Shown piece after piece: positions 9,797-22,829 of a DNA stretch of 64,000 nucleotides. The stretch's first letter is position 1, and every line of letters begins with the position of its first letter. Under the pieces are notes generated by a model. It was given only the letters and a program-made list of their open reading frames with translations. It searched no databases and was not told the origin of the DNA. Source of the stretch: Burkholderiales bacterium (lineage in GTDB: Bacteria > Pseudomonadota > Gammaproteobacteria > Burkholderiales > Casimicrobiaceae); NCBI GenBank assembly GCA_020851235.1, contig JADZDD010000011.1, positions 124,001 through 188,000 on the forward strand, in the 5' to 3' direction. Both the position numbers and the translations under genes were made by a program.

Positions 9797-10303
9797 TCAG
9801 GCCACGAGCGCCTCGCCGGCGTGCGCGACGACGAAATCGGCGATCGGTGCGATCGCGTCGAGCGCGAAGACCGGAAGCGCGGTGGCGACCCGGGTATCGG
9901 TGGCCACCGCAATGATCGACGGGTCACCGTCGAACAGGGTCGGCTTGCCGTTGGCCTCGCGATGGATCTCGAGCTTGGGCACGCCCGGCTCGCGCTTGAA
10001 GCCCTCGACCAGCACGAGGTCGCACGGCGACAGCCGTGCCACCAGCGCGCGCAGCGTCGGCTCGGGCGCACCACGCAACTCGTGCATGAGCGCGTAGCGC
10101 CGCGCCGAGGTGACGAGAACCTCGCTGCAGCCGGCGGCGCGATGCCGGTACGAATCCTTGCCGGGCTGGTCGACGTCGAAATCGTGATGCGCGTGCTTGA
10201 CGAGCGACACCACGAGCCCGCGCGCGGTGAGCACCGGAATCAGCTTCTCGAGGAGCGTCGTCTTGCCGCTGCCCGACCAGCCCGCGAAGCCGAAAATCCT
10301 CAC
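9797..10303 (-). CDS. mobB: molybdopterin-guanine dinucleotide biosynthesis adaptor protein MobB
   Basis: A 168-residue P-loop GTPase that assists MobA in making the guanine dinucleotide form of the molybdenum cofactor. The Walker A motif GWSGSGKTTLLEKLI is at the N-terminus, followed by LVKHAHHDFDVDQPGKDSYR and LVLVEGFKREP, both typical of MobB. I choose GTG at 10303 because GGGGAGG is 7 nt upstream; a GTG at 10309 would overlap the ald stop as GTGA but is too close to that site. It is the second gene after ald. With moaD/moaE nearby, it supports active molybdoenzyme use. Confidence 0.92.
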   Translation of the reverse strand: MRIFGFAGWSGSGKTTLLEKLIPVLTARGLVVSLVKHAHHDFDVDQPGKDSYRHRAAGCSEVLVTSARRYALMHELRGAPEPTLRALVARLSPCDLVLVEGFKREPGVPKLEIHREANGKPTLFDGDPSIIAVATDTRVATALPVFALDAIAPIADFVVAHAGEALVA

Positions 10304-10305
10304 GC

Positions 10306-11433
10306 TCACCCCTCCCCGTCCTGAACCTGCGCACTCGCCTTCGGACGTGCCGCGTCGGCGGCAAGCCCGGCGTGCACGATCAACCCATCGCGAACCATGA
10401 CGCCCGCGGCAAGACCCGGATCGTCGCGCAGCGCGCGATCGAGCCCGGCGGCGAGCCGGCGCACGTACGGCAGCGTGGCTGCGGTGAGCGCGAGGGTCGC
10501 GGTACGGGCGACGAGCGACGGCATGTTCGGGACCGCGTAGTGCACGACCCCGCATTCTACGTACGTCGGCGCCGACAGCTTCGTCATGCGCGAGGTCGCG
10601 GCGATCCCACCCTGGTCGATGCCGACGTCGACGATGGCGGATCCGGCGCGCATGGCGGCGACGAGTTCGCGCGGCAGCAGCGTGGGCGAGAGCGTGCCCG
10701 GCTCGAGTACGGCGCCGATCACGAGGTCGGCCGCGCGCACGCCATCGGCAAACGCATCGGCTTGCGTGATCGCAGCGGCGCGAATGGGATACCCTTCGCG
10801 CGCCAGCGCGTGCGCCAGCGCGTCGCGCCGCGACGCTCCGCGCGAGAAGACCGTCACGCGGGCGCCCATCCGCGCGGCGATGCGTGCCGCCTCCGCGCCG
10901 ACGTGCCCGGCGCCGACCACCACCACCTGCGCGCCGGGGACGTCGTCGACGCCGGTGATGAGAACGCCGGATCCACCGCGCGCCGTGGTGAGCGCGTCGG
11001 CTCCGGCCAACGGCGCGAGGCGCCCGGCGATGCGCGACATCGGCGCCAGGAGCGGCACCGTTCCTTTCGCATCGCGCACCGTCTCGTAACCGATGACCGT
11101 GACCCGCGCCTTCAGGACCGCCGCGAGGAGGGCCGGATCGCGGTTGATCTGGGCAAAGCCGAACACGATCGAGCCAGGCTGCAAGCACGCGTACTCGTCG
11201 ACCTGGATCTCCTTGACCTTGACCACGAGATCGCAGGCCCACACCGGCTCGACGCGCTCGACGACTTCGGCCCCGGCAGCGCGATATTCGGCATCGGCAT
11301 GACCGACGGCGCCACCGGCACCGGCTGCGACGACGACGGTGTGGCCGTCGCCCACGAGCGCGGCGACGCCGGCGGGCGTCATGCCGACGCGCCGTTCGCC
11401 GTCCTTCGTCTCGCGGGGTACGCCGATCCTCAT
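10306..11433 (-). CDS. ald: alanine dehydrogenase
   Basis: A 375-residue NAD-dependent L-alanine dehydrogenase, interconverting alanine and pyruvate plus ammonia. The N-terminus MRIGVPRETKDGERRVGMTP carries the family signature with the catalytic-site basic residues. VVVVGAGHVGAEAARIAARMGA is the NAD-binding Rossmann turn, and HYAVPNMPSLVARTATLALT is conserved near the C-terminus. Length is normal. It is followed 2 nt later by mobB. A TAGAAT box about 70 nt upstream is a candidate promoter. Confidence 0.94.
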   Translation of the reverse strand: MRIGVPRETKDGERRVGMTPAGVAALVGDGHTVVVAAGAGGAVGHADAEYRAAGAEVVERVEPVWACDLVVKVKEIQVDEYACLQPGSIVFGFAQINRDPALLAAVLKARVTVIGYETVRDAKGTVPLLAPMSRIAGRLAPLAGADALTTARGGSGVLITGVDDVPGAQVVVVGAGHVGAEAARIAARMGARVTVFSRGASRRDALAHALAREGYPIRAAAITQADAFADGVRAADLVIGAVLEPGTLSPTLLPRELVAAMRAGSAIVDVGIDQGGIAATSRMTKLSAPTYVECGVVHYAVPNMPSLVARTATLALTAATLPYVRRLAAGLDRALRDDPGLAAGVMVRDGLIVHAGLAADAARPKASAQVQDGEG

Positions 11434-12987: not shown

Positions 12988-13000
12988 CGGCGCTGCGATC

Positions 13001-13020
13001 GGCGCCGCTGGGGCGGCGCC
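13001..13020. terminator. hairpin between convergent SRAP and LysR genes
   Basis: GGCGCCGC, a TGGG loop and GCGGCGCC form a perfect 8-bp stem between two convergent stop codons. No T-run follows on either strand, so intrinsic termination is not assured; the position is what suggests a terminator. Confidence 0.35.
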
Positions 13021-13037
13021 ACGGGCGCGCCGTGCGC

Positions 13038-13925
13038 TCACGGTCCGGAGCGGGCGTCGAAAAACGCCTTGATCGCTGCCGTGGCCTGCATCCGCGGATG
13101 GCGCACGCGCTCGAGCAATCCGACTTCACGTATGACATCGATGCGGGGCGTCGCGACGATGCGCAGCGCACGATCGGCGGCCCAGTCGACGTTCGCGAGC
13201 CTCGGCACGATGGACACGCCGAAGCCGCCGCGAACGAGCTCGACGATCGCCTCGACCGAGTCGAGCTCCATCTCGTCGCGCGCGCGCACGCCGACCTGAC
13301 GTAGCGCGCGGCGCACGAGGTAGCCGGTCCACGCCCGCGGGTCGAAGCGAATGAACGGCGCGTCGCGGAGGATCTGCGCGCTCGCGCGCGGCAGCGTGAA
13401 ATTGGGGCGACGCGGGACGATCAGGACCATCGGCTCCGCGTACAGCGGCGTCCAGACGAGCTGCGATGAGAGACGATACGGCGGTCGCGTCACGATGGCC
13501 GCGTCGAGCTCGCCGCTTCCGACCCGCTCCGCGAAGTCGCGCGACTTGCCGGCGAGTAGCCGCACGACGAGGTGCGGATGCGCTCGCTTCATCGCCCACA
13601 GGGCATCGGCAAACGCGCCCATCAGCGCCGATACGAGCGCGCCCATCACGACGGTTCCGGTCAGGACCGCGCTGTCGCGCCGGGTGAGCAGGCCTTCGTA
13701 GCGCGACACGATGTCGCTCACCGCGACGACGACGTCGCGGCCGGTACCGTTGAGCACGACGCGACGCGCGCCGCGATCGAAGAGCGAAGTGCCGAGATCG
13801 GACTCGAGCGCCTTCATCTGCAAGCCGACGGCCGCCGGCGTGAGGCCCATCGCCTTGCCCGCCGCAGCGAAGCTTCCCTCGTGGGCCACGGCAATGAGGA
13901 GACGCAGCGTGCGGATCGAGACCAT
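13038..13925 (-). CDS. LysR family transcriptional regulator
   Basis: A 295-residue LysR-type regulator. The winged helix-turn-helix is at residues 1-60 (RTLRLLIAVAHEGSFAAAGK, then MGLTPAAVGLQMKALE). The C-terminal periplasmic-binding-like effector domain follows. It is divergent from the frd-fum operon with 72 nt between the starts, so by the usual LysR arrangement it likely regulates that operon in response to a C4-dicarboxylate or related acid. I use the ATG at 13925; a TTG at 13952 would add nine residues. Effector and target are inferred from position. Confidence 0.92.
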   Translation of the reverse strand: MVSIRTLRLLIAVAHEGSFAAAGKAMGLTPAAVGLQMKALESDLGTSLFDRGARRVVLNGTGRDVVVAVSDIVSRYEGLLTRRDSAVLTGTVVMGALVSALMGAFADALWAMKRAHPHLVVRLLAGKSRDFAERVGSGELDAAIVTRPPYRLSSQLVWTPLYAEPMVLIVPRRPNFTLPRASAQILRDAPFIRFDPRAWTGYLVRRALRQVGVRARDEMELDSVEAIVELVRGGFGVSIVPRLANVDWAADRALRIVATPRIDVIREVGLLERVRHPRMQATAAIKAFFDARSGP

Positions 13926-13997
13926 AAAGCGGAACTTTACCTCAGACTTCAACTAATTGGCTTTACTTACATACCCCAGTCGCGGACAATCGACTCC
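13926..13997. promoter_or_regulatory. divergent promoter and probable LysR operator
   Basis: This 72-bp gap is much more AT-rich than its surroundings. It holds two direct copies of a CTTTACnT motif (13935 and 13961 regions, about 26 bp apart), an AT-rich TTACATA that could be a -10 element for the plus-strand operon, and AACTAATTGG. LysR regulators usually bind T-N11-A sites in such gaps. I cannot fix the exact operator. Confidence 0.45.
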
Positions 13998-14795
13998 ATG
14001 CAGACGACCGATCCTTCGGCCGACGTAGCCATGCCCCAAGCCTCCGCGCAGGCGCAGCCCGAACGCACGCCGGCACGCCACGGCGCCACGCTGCGCGTCT
14101 CGCTGTGGCGCGGGCGCGACGACGGCGCCTTCGTGGAGTACGAGGTGCCGCGCCTTGAAAGCCAGACGGTACTCGACGTCGTGACCTGGGTCCAACGCCA
14201 CCGCGAGCCTGGGCTCGCGTATCGCTTCGCGTGCCGCGTCGGCATGTGCGGGTCGTGCGCGATGACGGTCAACGGCGTCGCACGGTGGACCTGCCGCACG
14301 CACGTCGCCGAGGTCGCCCAGGACGGCCACGTCCAGATCGCGCCGCTCGCAAACCTGCCGCGCGTGAAGGACCTCGTGACCGACATGCGCGAGTTCTTCG
14401 ACAAGTGGGCGCGTGCGCAGGGCCGCTTCTTCGGCGCGCGCACGCGGCACGACGAGTTCGCCCGCGTGCGCCCCGACTCGGAGGCGCGCCAGGCGGCCGA
14501 TGCCGGCATCGAGTGCATCGGTTGCGGCGTGTGCTATGCATCCTGCGACGTCGTGACCTGGCGTCCGGACTACCTCGGCCCCGCCGCGCTCAACCGGGCG
14601 TGGACGCTCGTCAACGACGAACGCGACACGGCGCAAGCCGCGCGCCTGCGCGCGGTGGCCGGGGACGCCGGGTGCCATTCCTGTCATTCGCTGGGATCGT
14701 GCACCGAGCGCTGCCCCAAGCACATCGCCCCCACGGGGTCGATCGCGGGCCTGAAGCGCGTCACGGCGCGCGCCGCCATCCGCGGGAAGCTCTAG
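13998..14795 (+). CDS. succinate dehydrogenase/fumarate reductase iron-sulfur subunit
   Basis: A 265-residue FeS subunit (SdhB/FrdB family) that passes electrons between flavin and quinone. The [2Fe-2S] ferredoxin domain has Cys79, Cys84, Cys87 and Cys99 (FACRVGMCGSCAMTVNG). The C-terminal half has CIGCGVCYASC for the [4Fe-4S] cluster and CHSCHSLGSCTERCPKHI for the remaining ligands including the [3Fe-4S] site. The N-terminus carries about 30 extra low-complexity residues. The gene opens an operon in which the flavoprotein gene comes last, after the fumarase genes. Whether the enzyme works as a reductase or a dehydrogenase is not decided by this subunit. Confidence 0.92.
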   Translation: MQTTDPSADVAMPQASAQAQPERTPARHGATLRVSLWRGRDDGAFVEYEVPRLESQTVLDVVTWVQRHREPGLAYRFACRVGMCGSCAMTVNGVARWTCRTHVAEVAQDGHVQIAPLANLPRVKDLVTDMREFFDKWARAQGRFFGARTRHDEFARVRPDSEARQAADAGIECIGCGVCYASCDVVTWRPDYLGPAALNRAWTLVNDERDTAQAARLRAVAGDAGCHSCHSLGSCTERCPKHIAPTGSIAGLKRVTARAAIRGKL

Positions 14796-14797
14796 CC

Positions 14798-15142
14798 ATG
14801 GCCGACGTCGTCCGCGAAACGAGGCGGTGGTACTGGCAGCGCGTGAGCGCGCTCGTGCTCGCACTGTGCGTGCTCGTCCATCTCGCGACGATCATCTACG
14901 CGGTGCGCTCCGGCCTGTCGGCGGAAGCCATCCTCGCCCGCACGCGCGGCAGCGTCACCTTTGCCGCCTTCTACACCATCTTCGTCGCGGCCTGCGCGGT
15001 TCACGTCCCCATCGGCATTGCGCGCGTCGCAGAGGAATGGCTCGGCTTGGCCCCACGGACCGCCGATGGCATCGCACATGCGCTCGCGCTGCTGCTCTTC
15101 GTGCTCGGCATGAGCGCGGTCTACGCGATGGTGGCCGGATGA
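14798..15142 (+). CDS. membrane anchor subunit 1 of succinate dehydrogenase/fumarate reductase
   Basis: A 114-residue membrane protein with three hydrophobic segments (about 15-38, 54-75 and 90-112). The segment AVHVPIGIARVAEEWLG has a His followed by a Gly-Ile pattern like the heme- and quinone-binding region of SdhD/SdhC anchors. It starts 2 nt after the FeS subunit and its stop overlaps the next start as ATGA, so the two anchors are translationally coupled. The family is weakly conserved; the role is inferred mainly from operon position. Confidence 0.8.
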   Translation: MADVVRETRRWYWQRVSALVLALCVLVHLATIIYAVRSGLSAEAILARTRGSVTFAAFYTIFVAACAVHVPIGIARVAEEWLGLAPRTADGIAHALALLLFVLGMSAVYAMVAG

Positions 15143-15555
15143 GCGCCCACGACACGAACGCGAGGCAGGAGCGTGTCGGACCACGGGGTCGCGCTTCCCG
15201 TGCCGGCCGCAATGACCGCCGCGCGCACGCCCACGCGTCCTGGTGGGCGTTCGCGGTGCATCGCGTGTCCGGCCTGGCACTCGCGCTCTTCCTCCCGTTT
15301 CACTTCCTCGCGCTGTCGAGCGCGCTGCGGGGCGACGCGGCCCTCGACGGCTTCCTGCGCTTCACCGATCGCCCGCTGTTCAAGATGGCCGAGTGGGTGC
15401 TGGTGGTCCTGCTGGCGGTGCACCTCGCGGGCGGGATCCGGCTGCTGGTGATCGAGTTCCGGCCCTGGTCGGGATTGCGCAAGAACCTCATCGCCGTGAG
15501 CGGAGGAGCCGGGCTCGCGGTGGGACTCGCCTTCGCGCTGGCGTTGCTGAAGTGA
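15139..15555 (+). CDS. membrane anchor subunit 2 (SdhC-like cytochrome b subunit)
   Basis: A 138-residue protein with an Arg-rich hydrophilic N-terminus (about 1-35) and three transmembrane segments. HRVSGLALALFLPFHFLALS matches the HR-x-SG start of SdhC, and AVHLAGGIRLLVIEF parallels the YHVVVGIRHMM region of E. coli SdhC that contains the heme b ligand. It would anchor the FeS and flavoprotein subunits and bind quinone and possibly heme. It overlaps the previous gene by 4 nt. Confidence 0.83.
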   Translation: MSAHDTNARQERVGPRGRASRAGRNDRRAHAHASWWAFAVHRVSGLALALFLPFHFLALSSALRGDAALDGFLRFTDRPLFKMAEWVLVVLLAVHLAGGIRLLVIEFRPWSGLRKNLIAVSGGAGLAVGLAFALALLK

Positions 15556-15574
15556 CGGGATCGGAGACACGACC

Positions 15575-16450
15575 ATGAAAATCGACCTGGCGGCGATCGA
15601 GGATGCGAGCCGCGAGCTCTACATCCGGGCATTGAAGATGCTCCCGCCCGACATCAAGGAAGGCTTCGACGCCCTCGTCACGCACGAAAGCGACTCGACC
15701 GCGCGCGGCGTGCTGGGGACGATGATCACCAACATCACGATCGCCGAGCGCGACGACAATCTCTTGTGCCAGGATACGGGGCTTCCGATCTACAACGTCG
15801 AGATCGGGCGTGGCGTGGACGTCGACGGCTACGGCCTCAAGATGGCGATCCGCCGCGGCTGTGAGCGGGCAACGCGCGAACACCCGCTGCGCTCGTCGGT
15901 GGTGCATCCGCTGACCCGGCACAACGAACACACGTCATGCGGCATCGAGATGCCGGCGATTCACATCGACTTCATCGATGCCGACGAGACGCTGCGCATC
16001 ACCATGATCCCGAAAGGCAGCGGCTCGGAGAACAACTCCTTCCTGCGCATGGCCATCCCGGCCGAGGGCGTCGACGCGGTCAAGACCTTCGTGATCGACT
16101 GCGTGCTGGCTGCGGGCGGCAAGACGTGCCCGCCGACGATCGTCGGCGTCGGCATCGGTGGCACGTCGGACCTGTGTGTCGCGCTCGCCAAGCGCGCCGC
16201 GACCCGAGCGCTCGGCACGCACTGCGCCGACCCGGACGGTGCCGCGCTGGAGGCCGCGCTGTCGCCGGCGGTGAATGCGCTCGGCGTCGGACCCCAGGGG
16301 CTCGGCGGCGATGCCACGTCCTTTGCCGTCCACGTCGAACTGGCCGCGACGCACATCACCATGAACCCGGTGGCCGTCAACATGCAGTGCCACTCGGCGC
16401 GGCGAGCGTCGGCGACCTTCACCCCCGCCGGCGTCGCGTACGGCTATTGA
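15575..16450 (+). CDS. class I fumarate hydratase, alpha (N-terminal) subunit
   Basis: A 291-residue [4Fe-4S] hydro-lyase alpha subunit of the two-subunit class I fumarase / L-tartrate dehydratase family. The likely cluster cysteines are in LLCQDTGLPIYN, KTCPPTIVGVGIGG and MQCHSARRASATF. KGSGSENNSFLRM and HNEHTSCGIEMPAIHIDF are also conserved. The reaction is reversible hydration of fumarate to malate; tartrate or mesaconate remain possible because the families are close. It lies 19 nt after the anchor gene and 67 nt before the beta subunit. Confidence 0.9.
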   Translation: MKIDLAAIEDASRELYIRALKMLPPDIKEGFDALVTHESDSTARGVLGTMITNITIAERDDNLLCQDTGLPIYNVEIGRGVDVDGYGLKMAIRRGCERATREHPLRSSVVHPLTRHNEHTSCGIEMPAIHIDFIDADETLRITMIPKGSGSENNSFLRMAIPAEGVDAVKTFVIDCVLAAGGKTCPPTIVGVGIGGTSDLCVALAKRAATRALGTHCADPDGAALEAALSPAVNALGVGPQGLGGDATSFAVHVELAATHITMNPVAVNMQCHSARRASATFTPAGVAYGY

Positions 16451-16517
16451 CGCGCACCGGCATCGGCAGGATCAACTGCCGCCGTGCACCCGTGCAGTGA
16501 GTGACCGAGGATCGACC

Positions 16518-17129
16518 ATGTCCCACCACGAACTCGAATTGCCCGTCGATGAAGCGGCGGTGCGACGCCTTCGCATCGGCGATACCGTGACCCTGCAGCG
16601 CACGCTCTTCGGCATCCGCGATGCGACGCAGATCCACATGTTCGATCATGGCCGCACGACGCGCTTCGATCTCGCCGGGCACGCCGTGATCCACACCGCC
16701 CCGAACGTGCGCAAGGTGACGCCCGACGCGACGAATCCTGCCGGGTACGCACCCGTGTGCATCGGCACCACGACGTCGGATCGCATGGAGCGCTTCACCC
16801 GGCCGCTGCTCGAGCGTTGTGGCGTGCGCATCATCGTCGGCAAGGGGGGATTGCGCGAGGCATCGGCCGCCGCGTTTCGCGATCTCGGCGGCGTCTACCT
16901 CGCGATCGTCGGCGGTACGGCGGCGCTGGAGACGACGTGGATCGAGGCGATCGAGGATGTCGATCTCGACGACCTCAATCCCGAATCATTGTGGAAATTT
17001 CGCATTCGCGACTTCGGACCGCTGCTCGTCGGCATGGACAGCGTCGGCGGCAGCCTCTACGAGACGGTGCGGGAGCACGCGGCGGCCAAGCGCGCCGCCG
17101 TGCTGGCGACCCTCGGCGTCAAGGCGTGA
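16518..17129 (+). CDS. class I fumarate hydratase, beta (C-terminal) subunit
   Basis: A 203-residue beta subunit of the class I fumarase / tartrate dehydratase pair. GDTVTLQRTLFGIRDATQIH, IGTTTSDRME, IIVGKGGLREASAAAFRDLG and the C-terminal ESLWKFRIRDFGPLLVGMD are family hallmarks. The ATG at 16518 is fixed by GAGG 7 nt upstream; an in-frame GTG at 16497 has no such site. Its stop overlaps the flavoprotein start as GTGA, so the two genes are translationally coupled. Confidence 0.9.
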   Translation: MSHHELELPVDEAAVRRLRIGDTVTLQRTLFGIRDATQIHMFDHGRTTRFDLAGHAVIHTAPNVRKVTPDATNPAGYAPVCIGTTTSDRMERFTRPLLERCGVRIIVGKGGLREASAAAFRDLGGVYLAIVGGTAALETTWIEAIEDVDLDDLNPESLWKFRIRDFGPLLVGMDSVGGSLYETVREHAAAKRAAVLATLGVKA

Positions 17130-18838
17130 AGCGCCTCGTCACCGACGTCCTGATCCTGGGCTCGGGTGGCGCCGGGCTGTTCGCCGCGCTGCACGCGCAG
17201 CAGACGGCGCCCGAGCTCTCGATCACGGTGGCGGTCAAGGGACTCCTCGGCAAGTGCGGCTGCACGCGCATGGTGCAAGGCGGCTACAACGTCGCGCTGG
17301 CCCAGGGCGATTCGATCGAGCGCCATTTCATGGATACGATCGAGGGGTCGAAGTGGCTCGCCGACCAGGATCTCGCGTGGGCGCTCGTGAATGGCGCCGT
17401 CGAGCGCATCCACGAACTCGAGAATGAGCTCGGCTGCTTCTTCGATCGCAACCCCGACGGCACGGTGCACCAGAAGGCGTTCGCCGGCCAGACGTTCGAC
17501 CGCACCGTGCACAAGGGCGACCTCACCGGCATCGAGATCATCAACCGCCTGGCCGAGCAGGTCTGGGCGCGCGACATTGCGCGCCTCGAGGACCATCGCG
17601 CGATCGAACTCATCAGGACGGCGGAAGGCGACGCGCTCGCCGGCGTGCTGATGATCGACATGCCGCGCGGTGAGTTCGTTTTCGTGCAGGCGAAGGCCGT
17701 CCTGCTCGCGACCGGCGGTGGCCCGACGATGTACCGCTACCACACCCCGTCGGGCGACAAGAGTTGCGACGGGCTCGCGATGGCGCTGCGCGCCGGCCTC
17801 GCATTGCGCGACATGGAGATGGTGCAGTTCCATCCCACCGGATTGCTCGCCGGATCGGGCACGCGGATGACGGGCACCGTCCTCGAGGAGGGGCTGCGCG
17901 GCGCCGGAGGCCACCTCCTCAACGGCGCCGGCGAGCGCTTCATGCATCACCACGATGCACGCGGCGAGCGGGCGACGCGCGACGTCGTCTCGCGCGGCAT
18001 CGACGCCGAGATGCGTGCGGGGCGAACCACGCCGAACGGCGGCGTGTGGATCGACATGCGCCATCTCGGCGCCGACAACGTCCGACGTCAGTTCAAGGGT
18101 ATGGTCGAGCGCTGCGCCGATTGCGGCTTCGACCTCGCCGGAGGCCTGGTCGAGGTGGTCCCCACCGCGCACTACATGATGGGTGGCGTGCGCTTCACCC
18201 CGGATGGGCGCACGGCGTTGCCCGGGCTCTTTGCCGCCGGCGAGGACACGGGCGGCGTGCACGGCGCGAACCGGCTCGGCGGCAACGGCGTTGCCAATTC
18301 GACCGTATTCGGCGGGATCGCCGGCGACTCGATCGGTGCGTTCGTGCGCCGCGAGGGACGCCTGCGTGAGCCCGATGCCGCAGCCATCGCCCGCAGCATC
18401 GCGCGCCACGAGGCGCCCTTTGCCGCGGCCCCGGGCTCGCTCGAAGGCGTGCGGGAAGCCCTCTACACGACGATGTGGGACGACGTGGGGATCGTGCGCG
18501 ACGCGGCGGGACTGCGGCGCGCCAGCGCGGCGCTCGCGCGCCTGCGCACGGAACTCCAGCACGTCGGGGTGGCCGATGGTGATCGCGGATTCAATACGCA
18601 CTGGCACGATTGGCTCAATCTCGCGAGCCTCATCGACGTGGGTGAAGTCATCGCCATGGCCGCGTTGGCGCGCGAGGACTCGCGCGGCGCGCATTTTCGC
18701 CGCGATTTCCCGCAAACCGGCGAGCTCACGTCGTCGACCTTCACCGAGGTGCGCCGGCACGATGCGGGATACACGCTCACGCACGAACCCGTGCGCTTCA
18801 CGCGCGTCGCTCCGGGGCAGAGTCTTCTCACGGCTTGA
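17126..18838 (+). CDS. succinate dehydrogenase/fumarate reductase flavoprotein subunit with Cys at the FAD-linking position
   Basis: A 570-residue SdhA/FrdA-family flavoprotein. GSGGAGLFAALHA binds FAD at the N-terminus. Active-site elements are intact: VQFHPTG, ATRDVVSRG, VVPTAHYMMGG and HGANRLGGNG. In E. coli SdhA and FrdA a His in the motif SHTVAA(Q/E)GG links FAD covalently. Here the aligned residue is Cys46 in CGCTRMVQGG, so covalent His-FAD cannot form. The start is GTG at 17126, overlapping the fumarase stop by 4 nt. It is the last gene of the operon. The missing His suggests a fumarate reductase-biased enzyme or a different enoate substrate; that is inference. Confidence 0.92.
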   Translation: MKRLVTDVLILGSGGAGLFAALHAQQTAPELSITVAVKGLLGKCGCTRMVQGGYNVALAQGDSIERHFMDTIEGSKWLADQDLAWALVNGAVERIHELENELGCFFDRNPDGTVHQKAFAGQTFDRTVHKGDLTGIEIINRLAEQVWARDIARLEDHRAIELIRTAEGDALAGVLMIDMPRGEFVFVQAKAVLLATGGGPTMYRYHTPSGDKSCDGLAMALRAGLALRDMEMVQFHPTGLLAGSGTRMTGTVLEEGLRGAGGHLLNGAGERFMHHHDARGERATRDVVSRGIDAEMRAGRTTPNGGVWIDMRHLGADNVRRQFKGMVERCADCGFDLAGGLVEVVPTAHYMMGGVRFTPDGRTALPGLFAAGEDTGGVHGANRLGGNGVANSTVFGGIAGDSIGAFVRREGRLREPDAAAIARSIARHEAPFAAAPGSLEGVREALYTTMWDDVGIVRDAAGLRRASAALARLRTELQHVGVADGDRGFNTHWHDWLNLASLIDVGEVIAMAALAREDSRGAHFRRDFPQTGELTSSTFTEVRRHDAGYTLTHEPVRFTRVAPGQSLLTA

Positions 18839-18865
18839 CCCTGGACTGCACCGGGCGCGGCGGCG

Positions 18866-19618
18866 TCAGGAGGTGAGGTTGCGGTAGAGGAGGTTGACCG
18901 CCCCCAGCAGCAGGACGGCGTGGATCGTCTGCACCACGCGTTCTGCCGGCAGTCGATGATGGAAGTGGCTGCCGAGCCACAGCCCGAGGAACCCGAGCGG
19001 AACGAGCACGGCGCACAGGGCGAGGAGCCCGGGCTGCGCGTACAGGCCCGTCCCCGCGAAGAGCGTCAGGCGAACGACGGCCGTCATCAGGATCAGCATG
19101 CCCATCGTCGCGCGCAGCACGCGCGCGTCGGGCAAGCGGCGCGTCACGTAGATCGTGTAGATCGGGCCGCCGGTGCCGTAGAGCGCGGTGAACACGCCTC
19201 CGGCCGTGCCGAACGACGGCGCCCAGCGCCGCGAGATCGGCTCGCGATGCGGCTTGCCGAAATGCGCGCGTGCGAGGTAGCCCAGCACGAACAGCGCGAG
19301 CAAGAGGAGCAAGGCACGCTCCGGCGCGCGAACGAGCAGCGTGACGCCGGCGAGCATCCCGGCGACCACCCAGGGTGCGAGCACGGCAAGCTCGCGCCAG
19401 GCGACGAGGCCACGGGTGCGCAAGGCGAGCAACGAGCCGCCGCACAGGTCGAGCAGGACCATCATCGGCACCGCGAACTTGAGCGGCAAGAGCACGACGA
19501 GGAACGGCATGGCGGTGATCGACGAGCCGAAGCCCGTCAGGCCGAAGACCGTGTACGCGACGAGCACGATCAGCCCGACGGCGACGATGGTCGCGGCGTC
19601 GAAGGGTGGCAGGAGCAA
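18866..19618 (-). CDS. TauE/SafE family anion exporter
   Basis: A 250-residue membrane protein with about eight hydrophobic segments and the internally repeated architecture of TauE/SafE (TSUP). GLTGFGSSITAMPFLVVLLP near the N-terminus and ALYGTGGPIYTIY in the second half are the paired signature motifs. Members export sulfite, sulfoacetate or other organic anions. It lies 71 nt after the NitT/TauT permease on the same strand, as expected for release of a product from an imported sulfonate. The start is an apparent TTG at 19618 without a clear ribosome binding site. Confidence 0.85.
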   Translation of the reverse strand: MLLPPFDAATIVAVGLIVLVAYTVFGLTGFGSSITAMPFLVVLLPLKFAVPMMVLLDLCGGSLLALRTRGLVAWRELAVLAPWVVAGMLAGVTLLVRAPERALLLLLALFVLGYLARAHFGKPHREPISRRWAPSFGTAGGVFTALYGTGGPIYTIYVTRRLPDARVLRATMGMLILMTAVVRLTLFAGTGLYAQPGLLALCAVLVPLGFLGLWLGSHFHHRLPAERVVQTIHAVLLLGAVNLLYRNLTS

Positions 19619-19689
19619 GGCCTAGCGCACCGCGGTCACGCGTGGCAAGACAGCCAACCCCGAACGCACGCCCGTGGCGGCCGTGAGCA

Positions 19690-20571
19690 TCAGTTCTGCA
19701 TGCCCCAGCGGCGCACCGTTCGCCGTTCGATCACGCGAAAGATGAGGTTCTCGACGACGAGTCCGATGAGAATCACGGTCAGCAAGCCCGCGAACACGTT
19801 GGCGATCTCGAGGGCATTCTTGTTCTCGTAGATGTACCAGCCGAGCCCGCCGGCACCCGAACTCACGCCGAAGACGAGCTCGGATGCGATGAGCGTGCGC
19901 CACGCGAACGCCCAGCCGATCTTGAGCCCCGTGAGGATCGACGGCAGTGCCGCCGGAATGAGGAGTTTCGAGACGTAGCTCAAGCCGGTGAGCCCGTAGT
20001 TGCGTCCGACCATGCGCATCGTCGGCGACACCGCCATGAAGCCGGCGTGCGTATTGAGCGCCACCGCCCAGACGACCGAATGGACGAGGACGAAGACGAG
20101 ACTCCCGTAGCCAAGGCCAAACCAGATCAGCGCGATCGGCAACAGCGCAATGGCGGGCAACGGGTTGAACATCGCCGTCAGCGTCTCCAGGAGGTCGTTG
20201 CCGACCTGCGTGAAGATCCCGAACGCCGTGAGCAGCGCCGCGAAGACGATCCCGGCCGCGTAGCCCATCATCAGGACCTCGAGCGACGTCGTCAGCTTGC
20301 GGGGAATCTCACCGGTCGCGATGCCCGCGAACAGCGCGTGGAGCGTGTCACTGAACGTCGGCAGGAGCAGTGCGTTGTTGAGCAGGCGCGCGCCGATCTC
20401 CCACGCGACCGCAAGCACCAGCAGGATCACGGTCTTGCGCAGGATCGGCCAGTTGTACAGGCGCTCGAAGGTGGACAGCGGCGCCTCGACCACGCCGAAC
20501 GCCGACGGATCAGAGGGCTTTCCCGTGATTTCCGGGCGATCGACCAGGATCGCGGCTTCGGCGTCAGGCAT
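19690..20571 (-). CDS. NitT/TauT-type ABC transporter permease
   Basis: A 293-residue inner-membrane permease of the SsuC/TauC family with about six transmembrane segments. The coupling loop is visible as MRMVGRNYGLTGLSYVSKLL followed by IPAALPSILTGLKIGWAFAW, the EAA-type motif. The first about 35 residues are hydrophilic. Its start overlaps the stop of the ATPase gene by 8 nt (ATGCCTGA). It partners the ATPase and binding protein upstream; substrate is not determined. Confidence 0.92.
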   Translation of the reverse strand: MPDAEAAILVDRPEITGKPSDPSAFGVVEAPLSTFERLYNWPILRKTVILLVLAVAWEIGARLLNNALLLPTFSDTLHALFAGIATGEIPRKLTTSLEVLMMGYAAGIVFAALLTAFGIFTQVGNDLLETLTAMFNPLPAIALLPIALIWFGLGYGSLVFVLVHSVVWAVALNTHAGFMAVSPTMRMVGRNYGLTGLSYVSKLLIPAALPSILTGLKIGWAFAWRTLIASELVFGVSSGAGGLGWYIYENKNALEIANVFAGLLTVILIGLVVENLIFRVIERRTVRRWGMQN

Positions 20572-21331
20572 GGGCTGCCTCCTCACTGAAGAGCATGTCG
20601 TTGATGCGCTCTTCGAGCAACCGCGCGCTCTCCCCGGCGACTTCCGCGCGTGGGACGCTCGCGAGCTCGGCCTTCACCTGACCCGGGTGCGGCGTCAGGA
20701 GCAGGATCCGGCTCCCGCACTTGACCGCCTCGGCGATCGAGTGCGTGACGAAGAGGACCGTGAAGTGCGTCTCGTCCCAAAGGTCGATCAGCTCGTCCTG
20801 CATGCGCCGGCGCGTGAGCGCATCGAGCGCCGCGTACGGTTCGTCCATGAGCAGCATCGCCGGCTCCATCGCCATGGCCCGCGCGATGGCGACGCGCTGC
20901 TTCATGCCTCCCGACAGCAGATGCGGATGATGATCGGCGAACTTGGCGAGATTCACCTTGGCGATGAAGTGCAGCGCGCGCTCGGCCGCGACCTTCGGCG
21001 GATACTTGCGCGAGGCGAGCATGGGAAACATGACGTTCTCGCGGACGGTCTTCCAGGGCAAGAGCTGGTCGAACTCCTGGAAGACCATCATCCGGTCGGG
21101 CCCGGGCTTTCTCACCGGCTGCCCGTCGAGCAGGATCTCGCCCTCCGATGGTGCGATGTAGCCGCCAACGGCCTTGAGGAGCGTCGACTTCCCGCAACCC
21201 GACGGCCCGAGGAGCACGTAGCGGTCGGAGCGAAAGACCTGGAAGTCGACGCGCCAGGTCGCCGTCACCAAATGTTCGCGCGTCTTGTACTGGAGCGTGA
21301 CGCCGCGAACGTCGAGCAGCGGCGCCTGCAT
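20564..21331 (-). CDS. NitT/TauT-type ABC transporter ATP-binding protein
   Basis: A 255-residue ABC ATPase of the SsuB/TauB family. Walker A is GPSGCGKSTLL, the Q-loop is VFQEFDQLLPW, the signature is LLSGGMKQRVAIARA, Walker B is MLLMDEPYAALD and the switch His is in FVTHSIAEAV. The start at 21331 shares one base with the stop of the binding-protein gene (TGATG), so translation is coupled. Confidence 0.94.
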   Translation of the reverse strand: MQAPLLDVRGVTLQYKTREHLVTATWRVDFQVFRSDRYVLLGPSGCGKSTLLKAVGGYIAPSEGEILLDGQPVRKPGPDRMMVFQEFDQLLPWKTVRENVMFPMLASRKYPPKVAAERALHFIAKVNLAKFADHHPHLLSGGMKQRVAIARAMAMEPAMLLMDEPYAALDALTRRRMQDELIDLWDETHFTVLFVTHSIAEAVKCGSRILLLTPHPGQVKAELASVPRAEVAGESARLLEERINDMLFSEEAAHA

Positions 21332-22365
21332 CAGCTTCCCGGCAGCTTGTGCACGTTGTCGAAGAACATGGCCTTCCACGACTCAGGCTTCACCTTGATC
21401 GAGCCAATGCGCAGCATGAAGTCGACGTACTTCATCGTGTTCTGTGGCGTCAGCGTGAATACCATCGTGGGGTCATCGAGCATCTTGACGATCTGATCGA
21501 TCGAGCTCTTGTCCTTGCTCATCCGCAGGTACGTCTCCGCGACGGCACGGTGATCCTTGTTGATCTGCGCGGTGGCCTGCTCGAGCGCCGTGATGAAGGC
21601 GCCGTAGACCTTCGGATTCGCGGCCTGGAACTTCGACGACGTCCAGATCACGTTGAACGTCGCAGGCCCGCCCAGGACATCGAACGAGCTCAGCACGCGG
21701 TGGATGCTGGGGTCGGCGAGCTCCTGGAACTGGAACGGTGGCGAGGTGAAGTGCGCGGTGATCTCGCTCTTGCCGGACAGCAGCGCGGCCATCCCGTCGG
21801 GATGGCTCATCGACACGGTGAGGCGATCGAGCTCGTTCTGCTTTCCTGCGCCAAAAGCCTGCTCCGCCGCCATCTGCAAGGTCACGGCCTGGATCGACAC
21901 CTTCACCGCCGGCAGCGCGATCTTGTCCTTGTCGGTGAAATCCTTGAGGGACTTGACGTTCGGGTTGCGCGTGTTGAGGTAGAGCGGCATCGAGTTGATG
22001 GCCGCTGCACCCTTGACGTTGTAGTTGCCGTGCGTCTTGGCCCACAGCGTCACGAAGGGTCCGACCCCACCGGCCGCGAAATCGAGACTGTCCGACAGGA
22101 GCGCGTCGTTCATGACGTTGCCACCGGCGAAGGTCGCCCACGTGACCTTGAGATTCGGGACACCTGCGGCGGCAGCCGCCTTCTCGATGAGCTTCTGGTC
22201 CTCCATGAGCATCAGCGGGAGGTAGCTGATCCCGTACTGCCGCGCGATCCTCAGCTCGCCCGTTTCCGCTGCCGCCGTCGAAATGCCTGCAAACGTTGCC
22301 ATCGCGGCTGCGGCGACCATCGCCGCCAGCGCGGTCCTGCGTCCTGCAAGGGAATGTTGCTTCAC
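21331..22365 (-). CDS. ABC transporter substrate-binding protein, NitT/TauT family
   Basis: A 344-residue periplasmic binding protein. The N-terminus has a basic start and a hydrophobic signal segment (LAAMVAAAAMATFAGISTAA). The mature part begins with GELRIARQYGISYLPLMLME, the usual opening of nitrate/sulfonate/taurine binders, and includes SDSLDFAAGGVGPFVTLW. The GTG start at 22365 has GGAGGAG close upstream. It is first in the operon binding protein-ATPase-permease-TauE. The ligand cannot be read from sequence; the TauE partner favours an organic sulfonate or similar anion. Confidence 0.9.
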   Translation of the reverse strand: MKQHSLAGRRTALAAMVAAAAMATFAGISTAAAETGELRIARQYGISYLPLMLMEDQKLIEKAAAAAGVPNLKVTWATFAGGNVMNDALLSDSLDFAAGGVGPFVTLWAKTHGNYNVKGAAAINSMPLYLNTRNPNVKSLKDFTDKDKIALPAVKVSIQAVTLQMAAEQAFGAGKQNELDRLTVSMSHPDGMAALLSGKSEITAHFTSPPFQFQELADPSIHRVLSSFDVLGGPATFNVIWTSSKFQAANPKVYGAFITALEQATAQINKDHRAVAETYLRMSKDKSSIDQIVKMLDDPTMVFTLTPQNTMKYVDFMLRIGSIKVKPESWKAMFFDNVHKLPGS

Positions 22366-22829
22366 GAGCCTCTCCTCCGTGGTGGTTCCAACCGGACGGT
22401 GGTGCGCCACCATCCATGGCACAGCTGTCGCGACGATGTCGCTCGACGCCGATCTGCGTCGGCGTCCCCGATCTTACCCTCGAACCCGCGCCCTCCCGTG
22501 CGACACCCCGCCACGCGCCGATCGCTCGGGTCGATGCAGCGACACGTCACGCGGTGCAAGCCGCACCTGCGTTCCCATCACCTCACGCATCGAACCCGAT
22601 GTCAGCGATGGACACGCACTTGCACCCGATGCGTCGGTGTTCGCGCTCCGCATGAGCGTCGCGCGCGAAGGACGCGTCGCCGATGGCGACGATTATGCGG
22701 CGAAGCACGACCACTCGCCCATCGAGTCCTATAGATGACTTGAAGGTCTCCGGCGCGTGCCGCGACGAGACGTGCCGCGGGAAACGCGACGCGCCTGCCC
22801 ATGCGGCCGCGGCCGATCCGCCGATGAAG
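22366..22829. other. 464-bp intergenic region upstream of the ABC operon
   Basis: No convincing gene lies here. On the minus strand a TAAGAT at 22471-22476 could be a -10 box for the ABC operon, about 100 nt from its GTG. On the plus strand an open frame from 22436 to 22738 encodes about 100 residues with a charged C-terminus ending DHSPIESYR; it has no clear ribosome binding site or recognisable family, so I do not call it a gene. Nothing else repetitive or structured was noticed. Confidence 0.4.

Follow-up and report, generated by a model that had tools for sequence, protein, structure and literature searches.

Why does a bacterial genome keep fumarase genes inside an operon for a succinate dehydrogenase- or fumarate reductase-like enzyme? 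The arrangement is found in a 64,000-nucleotide stretch of a Burkholderiales bacterium of the Casimicrobiaceae (assembly GCA_020851235.1, contig JADZDD010000011.1, positions 124,001 to 188,000), which is called the window here. At 13998-18838 of its + strand, the sequence and its open reading frames give six genes in the order sdhB-sdhC-sdhD-fumA-fumB-sdhA, referred to below as the unit or module. An earlier note on this DNA had suggested that they form a complete succinate-fumarate-malate module, or an analogous pathway acting on another enoate such as mesaconate. Our analysis suggested that the unit probably encodes a sulfonate pathway from 3-sulfopropionate through 3-sulfoacrylate to 3-sulfolactate, the counterpart of succinate to fumarate to malate. 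The evidence is the gene content, order and conservation of the unit, the active-site residues of its flavoprotein, its linkage to sulfolactate genes, and the presence of suyA-suyB-slcC-comC in the same genome.

A conserved second set of genes

The unit begins with an sdhB-like gene for the iron-sulfur subunit (13998-14795; TIGR00384, 186.6 bits against a cut-off of 88). Two nucleotides further on lies the sdhC-like gene for the first membrane anchor (14798-15142; Sdh_cyt, 25.4 bits, cut-off 25.8), which overlaps by ATGA with an sdhD-like gene for a second anchor of the cytochrome b556 type (15139-15555; Sdh_cyt, 46.6 bits; TIGR02970, 52.2 bits, cut-off 52.3). After 19 nucleotides follows fumA, for a class I fumarase-type alpha subunit (15575-16450; PF05681 and NF004885), and 67 nucleotides separate it from the ATG of fumB, for the beta subunit (16518-17129; PF05683); a GTG at 16497 is a possible alternative fumB start. 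The last gene, for an sdhA-like flavoprotein (17126-18838; FAD_binding_2 and Succ_DH_flav_C), starts at the GTG of a GTGA overlap with fumB. A LysR-family regulator gene (13038-13952, - strand; Pfam HTH_1 and LysR_substrate) diverges from the unit. The order, the two overlaps and the divergent regulator, all described in the earlier note, were confirmed by the sequence, the open reading frames and family scans.

To place the unit among its relatives, we used 80 loci from named genomes, which are the top-ranking ones among 581 or more candidates rather than a random sample. This database check of the order found it in full at 61 of the 80 loci. At 2 loci sdhA stands ahead of fumA-fumB, and at 17 the unit is only partial, several of these being on short contigs; at L086, sdhA is alone within 21.7 kilobases (kb). 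The junction between sdhD and fumA is as compact as in the window at 30 of 66 loci and holds an insert of about 0.9-3.7 kb at the other 36, for example a gene for a TctC-like binding protein or a sulfatase. The pairwise distances of sdhB, fumA, fumB and sdhA correlate (r = 0.63-0.76 over 58 loci, uncorrected for species relatedness), which supports the co-inheritance of the fumarase and reductase parts. The flavoprotein was found in 23 of 61 related genomes (E <= 1e-120), and relatives of it in 20 of 72,556 plasmid records. The gene order is thus real and conserved.

Two loci deserve separate mention. A PF00884 sulfatase gene lies between sdhD and fumA at L092:5836-7248, and its cluster covers 7 loci. 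At L030:3-3195 a second flavoprotein, 50% identical, is accompanied by an sdhB of its own, and the short flanks show no fumAB; the genome concerned (G016) also carries the module.

On contig C6 of the window's genome, a conventional sdhA adjoins a conventional sdhB in an order different from that of the unit, as the earlier note had expected. The genome also carries a class I fumarase gene on contig C1 and a third flavoprotein match on contig C25. A conventional sdhA was present in at least 14 of the 23 module-bearing genomes under a strict threshold. The unit is a second set alongside the conventional sdhA and class I fumarase.

Sulfolactate genes around the unit

Neighbouring genes were counted in flanks of up to 10 kb by BLAST (E <= 1e-10, half of the probe covered). 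SuyA, SuyB and TauE-like proteins were each encoded at 38 of the 80 named loci, ComC-like proteins at 42 and SlcC-like proteins at 24. HpsN (78-82% identical to annotated Cupriavidus HpsN) occurred at 8, HpsO-like proteins at 9, a sulfite dehydrogenase at 3 and a YeiH-type exporter at 2. At least one of SuyA, SuyB, TauE, YeiH and sulfite dehydrogenase was found at 52 of the 80 loci and at 42 of the 51 loci no shorter than 15 kb. The density of SuyB genes in 61 genomes (assumed mean genome size 3.75 Mb) predicts roughly 0.16 of them in this much DNA, versus the 38 loci observed. As a control, 14 loci with a conventional sdhA from module-bearing relatives, together 203 kb, contained none of these neighbour genes. 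A probe for GntR matched 11 of these 14 control loci and was not used. An acetolactate-synthase-like thiamine diphosphate enzyme (L031:13660-15285 and homologues) was also seen near the module, at 27 of the 80 loci.

Several loci bring the genes together. In L082 and L083, hpsN-hpsO-(hpsP-like)-suyA-suyB-slcC-comC lie on one strand directly upstream of sdhB-sdhC-sdhD-fumA-fumB-sdhA, and the other strand carries, after sdhA, a TauE gene and three ATP-binding cassette (ABC) transporter genes, arranged as in the window. In L113 (Polynucleobacter), the module shares about 15 kb with TauE, a thiamine pyrophosphate (TPP) gene, slcC, comC, suyA, suyB and genes for a YeiH-type exporter and a sulfite dehydrogenase. 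The suyA-suyB pair of L098 is located about 0.7 kb upstream of sdhB. The window's own genome carries suyA-suyB-slcC-comC beside a GntR gene on contig C35.

In the window, the opposite strand after sdhA holds a TauE/SafE-family gene (18866-19618, - strand; PF01925, 98.2 bits), whose product is a proposed sulfite or sulfonate exporter; it keeps the same position and strand in L039, L082 and L083. Three ABC transporter genes follow, all on the - strand. The permease (19690-20586) is of the NitT/TauT type judged by its company, as its homologues recur near the module with an ATPase and a binding protein. The ATPase (20564-21379) is of the nitrate/taurine type, its top NCBIfam models being ntrCD and taurine ATPase, both under cut-off, and the substrate-binding protein (21331-22422) is SsuA-like (TIGR01728, 64.4 bits, cut-off 163.5). 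At L153 and L161 the module adjoins a different ABC transporter with a PBP_like_2 binding protein, perhaps another uptake route.

The plasmid relatives come from Methylobacterium, Paracoccus, strain NT-25, Sulfitobacter, Pseudomonas and Haloarcula. Their neighbours are varied and include TauE, YeiH-type exporters, sulfite dehydrogenases, pairs of the UxaA family, Ldh-type and hydroxyacid dehydrogenases, and tripartite tricarboxylate (TTT) and tripartite ATP-independent periplasmic (TRAP) transporters. On Paracoccus versutus pTAV3 (L125:1-26001 with L033), about 40 kb carry the module, Ldh-type and hydroxyacid dehydrogenases and a hisD-type dehydrogenase (perhaps hpsN). The same stretch also holds a UxaA pair (76.9% to Methylobacterium SuyB), an exporter, a pyruvate carboxylase and a sulfite oxidase, and it is likely a C3-sulfonate island.

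The naming of the UxaA pair was examined separately. SuyB in the named loci is 63-73% identical to Methylobacterium SuyB, and the large subunit from Methylobacterium shares 67.5-69% identity with the Cupriavidus pinatubonensis homologue beside annotated hpsN and hpsO. This is the species where SuyAB was identified, according to a review. Of the 72,556 plasmid records, 25 hold a SuyB-like UxaA protein; 13 of these have SuyB at >=61% and 12 have UxaA at <=39%. The NCBIfam scan gave no SuyAB name for the pair, only galactarate dehydratase far under its cut-off. By this evidence from sequence comparison, the bacterial UxaA pair near the module is the predicted sulfolactate sulfo-lyase SuyAB.

Subunit families, active site and hydratase partners

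The unit resembles complex II (SdhABCD, FrdABCD) in having a flavoprotein with catalytic His and Arg residues, a three-cluster iron-sulfur subunit and two small anchors. SdhB contains Fer2_3 and 4Fe-4S dicluster domains (Pfam), with Cys motifs for three clusters by reading. The unit differs from complex II in its gene order, with the unusual position of the fumarase genes, and in its proposed substrate. The flavoprotein scores below the cut-off of each of the 25 NCBIfam families shown (out of 30), among them succinate dehydrogenase (SDH), fumarate reductase (FRD), TfrA, NadB and others. For the SDH/FRD models TIGR01812, TIGR01816 and TIGR01176, the scores are 436 versus 567, 330 versus 727 and 323 versus 933. 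Its top match is NF004900, thiol:fumarate reductase TfrA (495.9 bits, cut-off 718), from which the window unit differs in having anchors and, in the sulfonate reading, in a substrate other than fumarate.

We aligned the flavoprotein with E. coli SdhA, E. coli FrdA and the conventional SdhA of its own genome, and then counted residues in the 80 loci. His236, Arg285, His349 and Arg383, equivalent to FrdA His232, Arg287, His355 and Arg390, which we take to be catalytic, are kept in 80/80. At the position of FrdA Thr244, presumably a substrate-site residue, all 80 have Glu254 in place of the Thr of complex II. A 6-residue insertion, likewise a difference from complex II, precedes Glu254, and Arg247, Thr249 and Gly250 are present in 80/80. 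Glu254 need not be a sulfonate-specific feature. The SHT motif that carries the flavin adenine dinucleotide (FAD) in SdhA/FrdA is replaced by GCT, with Cys46 in 80/80 and a one-residue alignment gap; FAD may be held via this invariant Cys in place of the usual His. For Cys46 of the window protein, cysteinyl-FAD is possible and non-covalent FAD equally likely. The predicted structure of the flavoprotein has a mean predicted local distance difference test (pLDDT) score of 72, and the model was set aside because the segments holding the substrate and FAD sites score below 50.

FumA and FumB resemble the two-subunit class I fumarase/L-tartrate dehydratase/mesaconase family in their alpha and beta subunits, cluster cysteines and the GKGG motif of the beta subunit. 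FumA aligns to 7xky_A with its Cys motifs retained, and FumB to 7xky_B and 2isb_A. FumB exceeds the cut-off of Pfam PF05683 (90.7 versus 22.2) and is below all 8 NCBIfam cut-offs listed (TIGR00723, 130.5/145.15; NF006082, 134/264; NF004708, 124/269). In contrast to that family, the window FumB reads RDATQ for RDEAH and GTTTSDR for GPTTSAR by reading of the alignment, and its genes lie within a complex II operon near sulfonate genes.

The dehydrogenase is also accompanied by other hydratases, the window-type FumAB being one kind. FumAB that is 27-35% identical and placed after sdhA occurs in six plasmid loci (Paracoccus, NT-25, Sulfitobacter, Pseudomonas, Methylobacterium nodulans and Cupriavidus). 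Rhodococcus jostii RHA1 has a diverged FumAB, about 50% identical, with SuyB (63%), SuyA and SlcC- and ComC-like genes (38-40%) 14-20 kb away; no membrane anchor was detected there with the probes used. In two haloarchaea an ArgH-like lyase gene stands with the dehydrogenase, adjoining a UxaA pair and TauE. Pairing of varied hydratases with one dehydrogenase points to a single intermediate that requires hydration. On balance, we lean towards a distinct complex II branch ('sulfo-complex II'), spread over two bacterial phyla with haloarchaeal relatives, that would act as a respiratory 3-sulfopropionate dehydrogenase and was repeatedly joined by differing hydratases to reach sulfolactate. Its partners would be two or three kinds of FumAB and, in haloarchaea, perhaps the ArgH-like lyase.

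A proposed route from 3-sulfopropionate and its rivals

In the proposed pathway, the ABC transporter would import the sulfonate. 3-Sulfopropionate (-O3S-CH2-CH2-COO-), an analogue of succinate, would be oxidised to 3-sulfoacrylate, an analogue of fumarate, by an SdhABCD-like complex of flavoprotein, iron-sulfur subunit and two anchors. This complex would be a dedicated respiratory 3-sulfopropionate:quinone oxidoreductase with the flavoprotein as its candidate catalytic subunit, and electrons would pass from FAD through three iron-sulfur clusters to quinone. FumA and FumB, the putative alpha and beta subunits of a 3-sulfoacrylate hydratase, would then add water to give 3-sulfolactate, the malate analogue. 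A fumarase-like, L-specific addition would yield the R enantiomer, which is the one used by SuyAB. SuyAB would split sulfolactate into pyruvate and sulfite, SlcC and ComC would interconvert the sulfolactate enantiomers, and sulfite would exit through TauE. The 3-sulfolactate degradation genes (suyAB-slcC-comC, tauE and the YeiH-type exporter) start from sulfolactate, and the module would feed this compound from 3-sulfopropionate. From the gene evidence above we infer what the substrate is, which way the reactions run, that quinone is used and what TauE and the ABC transporter do.

The literature contains a matching route. PMC11489063 cites a thesis for the conversion of homotaurine to 3-sulfopropionate, sulfoacrylate and sulfolactate in Roseovarius nubinhibens, and we suspect that the module described here underlies that route. 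This 2024 paper states that 3-sulfopropionate degradation by bacteria is unreported apart from that thesis. The compound is excreted in homotaurine use and in dihydroxypropanesulfonate fermentation. In the open-licence PMC literature, as far as its retrieved extracts go, no genes were found assigned to 3-sulfopropionate dehydrogenation or sulfoacrylate hydration.

The LysR-family regulator may control the unit; its homologue is encoded at 32 of the 80 loci with a median identity of 58%. A sigma-70 consensus scan of 13000-19700 gave zero sites anywhere and is hence uninformative on internal promoters. Promoter and terminator consensus scans gave no signal exceeding shuffled sequence, and nothing in the window reached the gathering score of an Rfam family. 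Upstream of the LysR gene, a MobB-like P-loop protein (9797-10364) and an alanine dehydrogenase-like open reading frame (10306-11433) were recognised by eye on the - strand.

Several observations weigh against the sulfonate reading. Beyond the selection of the 80 loci already described, ComC, SlcC, HpsO and TauE belong to broad families, and their labels are weaker than those of SuyB and HpsN. In the window's genome suyAB are on a different contig from the unit. The haloarchaeal UxaA pair cannot be called SuyAB because it is only 33-35% identical to SuyB, no nearer than other UxaA proteins. Among close relatives, 20 of the 23 positive genomes, that of the window among them, gave 20 module loci, which total 228 kb and in many cases lie on short contigs. 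SuyA/B, ComC, SlcC or TauE occurred at 7/20 of them and SuyB at 2/20, so the linkage to sulfonate genes is strong among the named loci and becomes weaker in relatives close to the window's genus. At the threshold used, 7 of the 23 flavoprotein-bearing genomes are without SuyB, including the closest relative G001; the module can therefore occur without the SuyAB route, as far as incomplete genomes show. Such genomes would need another sulfolactate route, or the gene lies in a missing part. Across the 61 genomes, 16 have both module and SuyB, 7 the module only, 12 SuyB only and 26 neither, a modest association (Fisher p = 0.007, uncorrected for relatedness). FumA also exceeds the curated fumarate hydratase cut-off (NF004885, 294.5 bits versus 276).

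This FumA score and the genomes without SuyB count in favour of a second succinate-fumarate-malate module that supports the Krebs cycle in special conditions, such as growth on pyruvate-yielding sulfonates. All six proteins fall in complex II or class I fumarase families, the flavoprotein has kept its catalytic His and Arg, and the authors of PMC12421959 propose a Krebs-cycle link for a cluster that may be similar. Nevertheless, we regard this explanation as unlikely. The genome already encodes a conventional SdhA as well as a class I fumarase, and the flavoprotein is under every SDH/FRD cut-off shown. The Thr to Glu change at the substrate site and the loss of the FAD-linking His are found in 80/80, and sulfolactate genes recur near the unit and near 0/14 conventional sdhA loci. 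The earlier proposal of a complete succinate-fumarate-malate module is thus not supported by the conventional genes elsewhere, the changed substrate site and the sulfonate neighbours.

The same enzymes could also run backwards, since complex II and fumarase are reversible. Sulfolactate would then be dehydrated to sulfoacrylate, whose reduction to 3-sulfopropionate would serve as an electron sink, and TauE would export the product; a TauE protein is proposed as a 3-sulfopropionate exporter of Enterococcus gilvus in PMC11489063. This direction appears very improbable: uptake-type ABC, TTT or TRAP transporters and, at some loci, sulfite dehydrogenases adjoin the module, SuyAB forms sulfite from the same sulfolactate, and the thesis route cited in that paper goes the opposite way. 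Least probable of all is a methyl-branched series from methylsuccinate to mesaconate and citramalate. Mesaconases do occur among the class I fumarase relatives, but among the recurrent neighbour clusters named by probe or Pfam, which leave out many small ones, there is neither a CoA transferase nor a citramalyl-CoA lyase or methylaspartate gene, and sulfonate genes recur near the module instead. The idea of another enoate in the earlier note is therefore supported in that the neighbours point to 3-sulfoacrylate, and finds no support for mesaconate, with no CoA transferase or citramalate lyase among the named clusters.

If the 3-sulfopropionate reading is true, the unit would supply the missing genes for the 3-sulfopropionate step by which organic sulfur is recycled in nature. 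Many genes now named succinate dehydrogenase, fumarate reductase or fumarase would become sulfonate genes, and the unit would be a clear case of a segment of the Krebs cycle reused for sulfonates.

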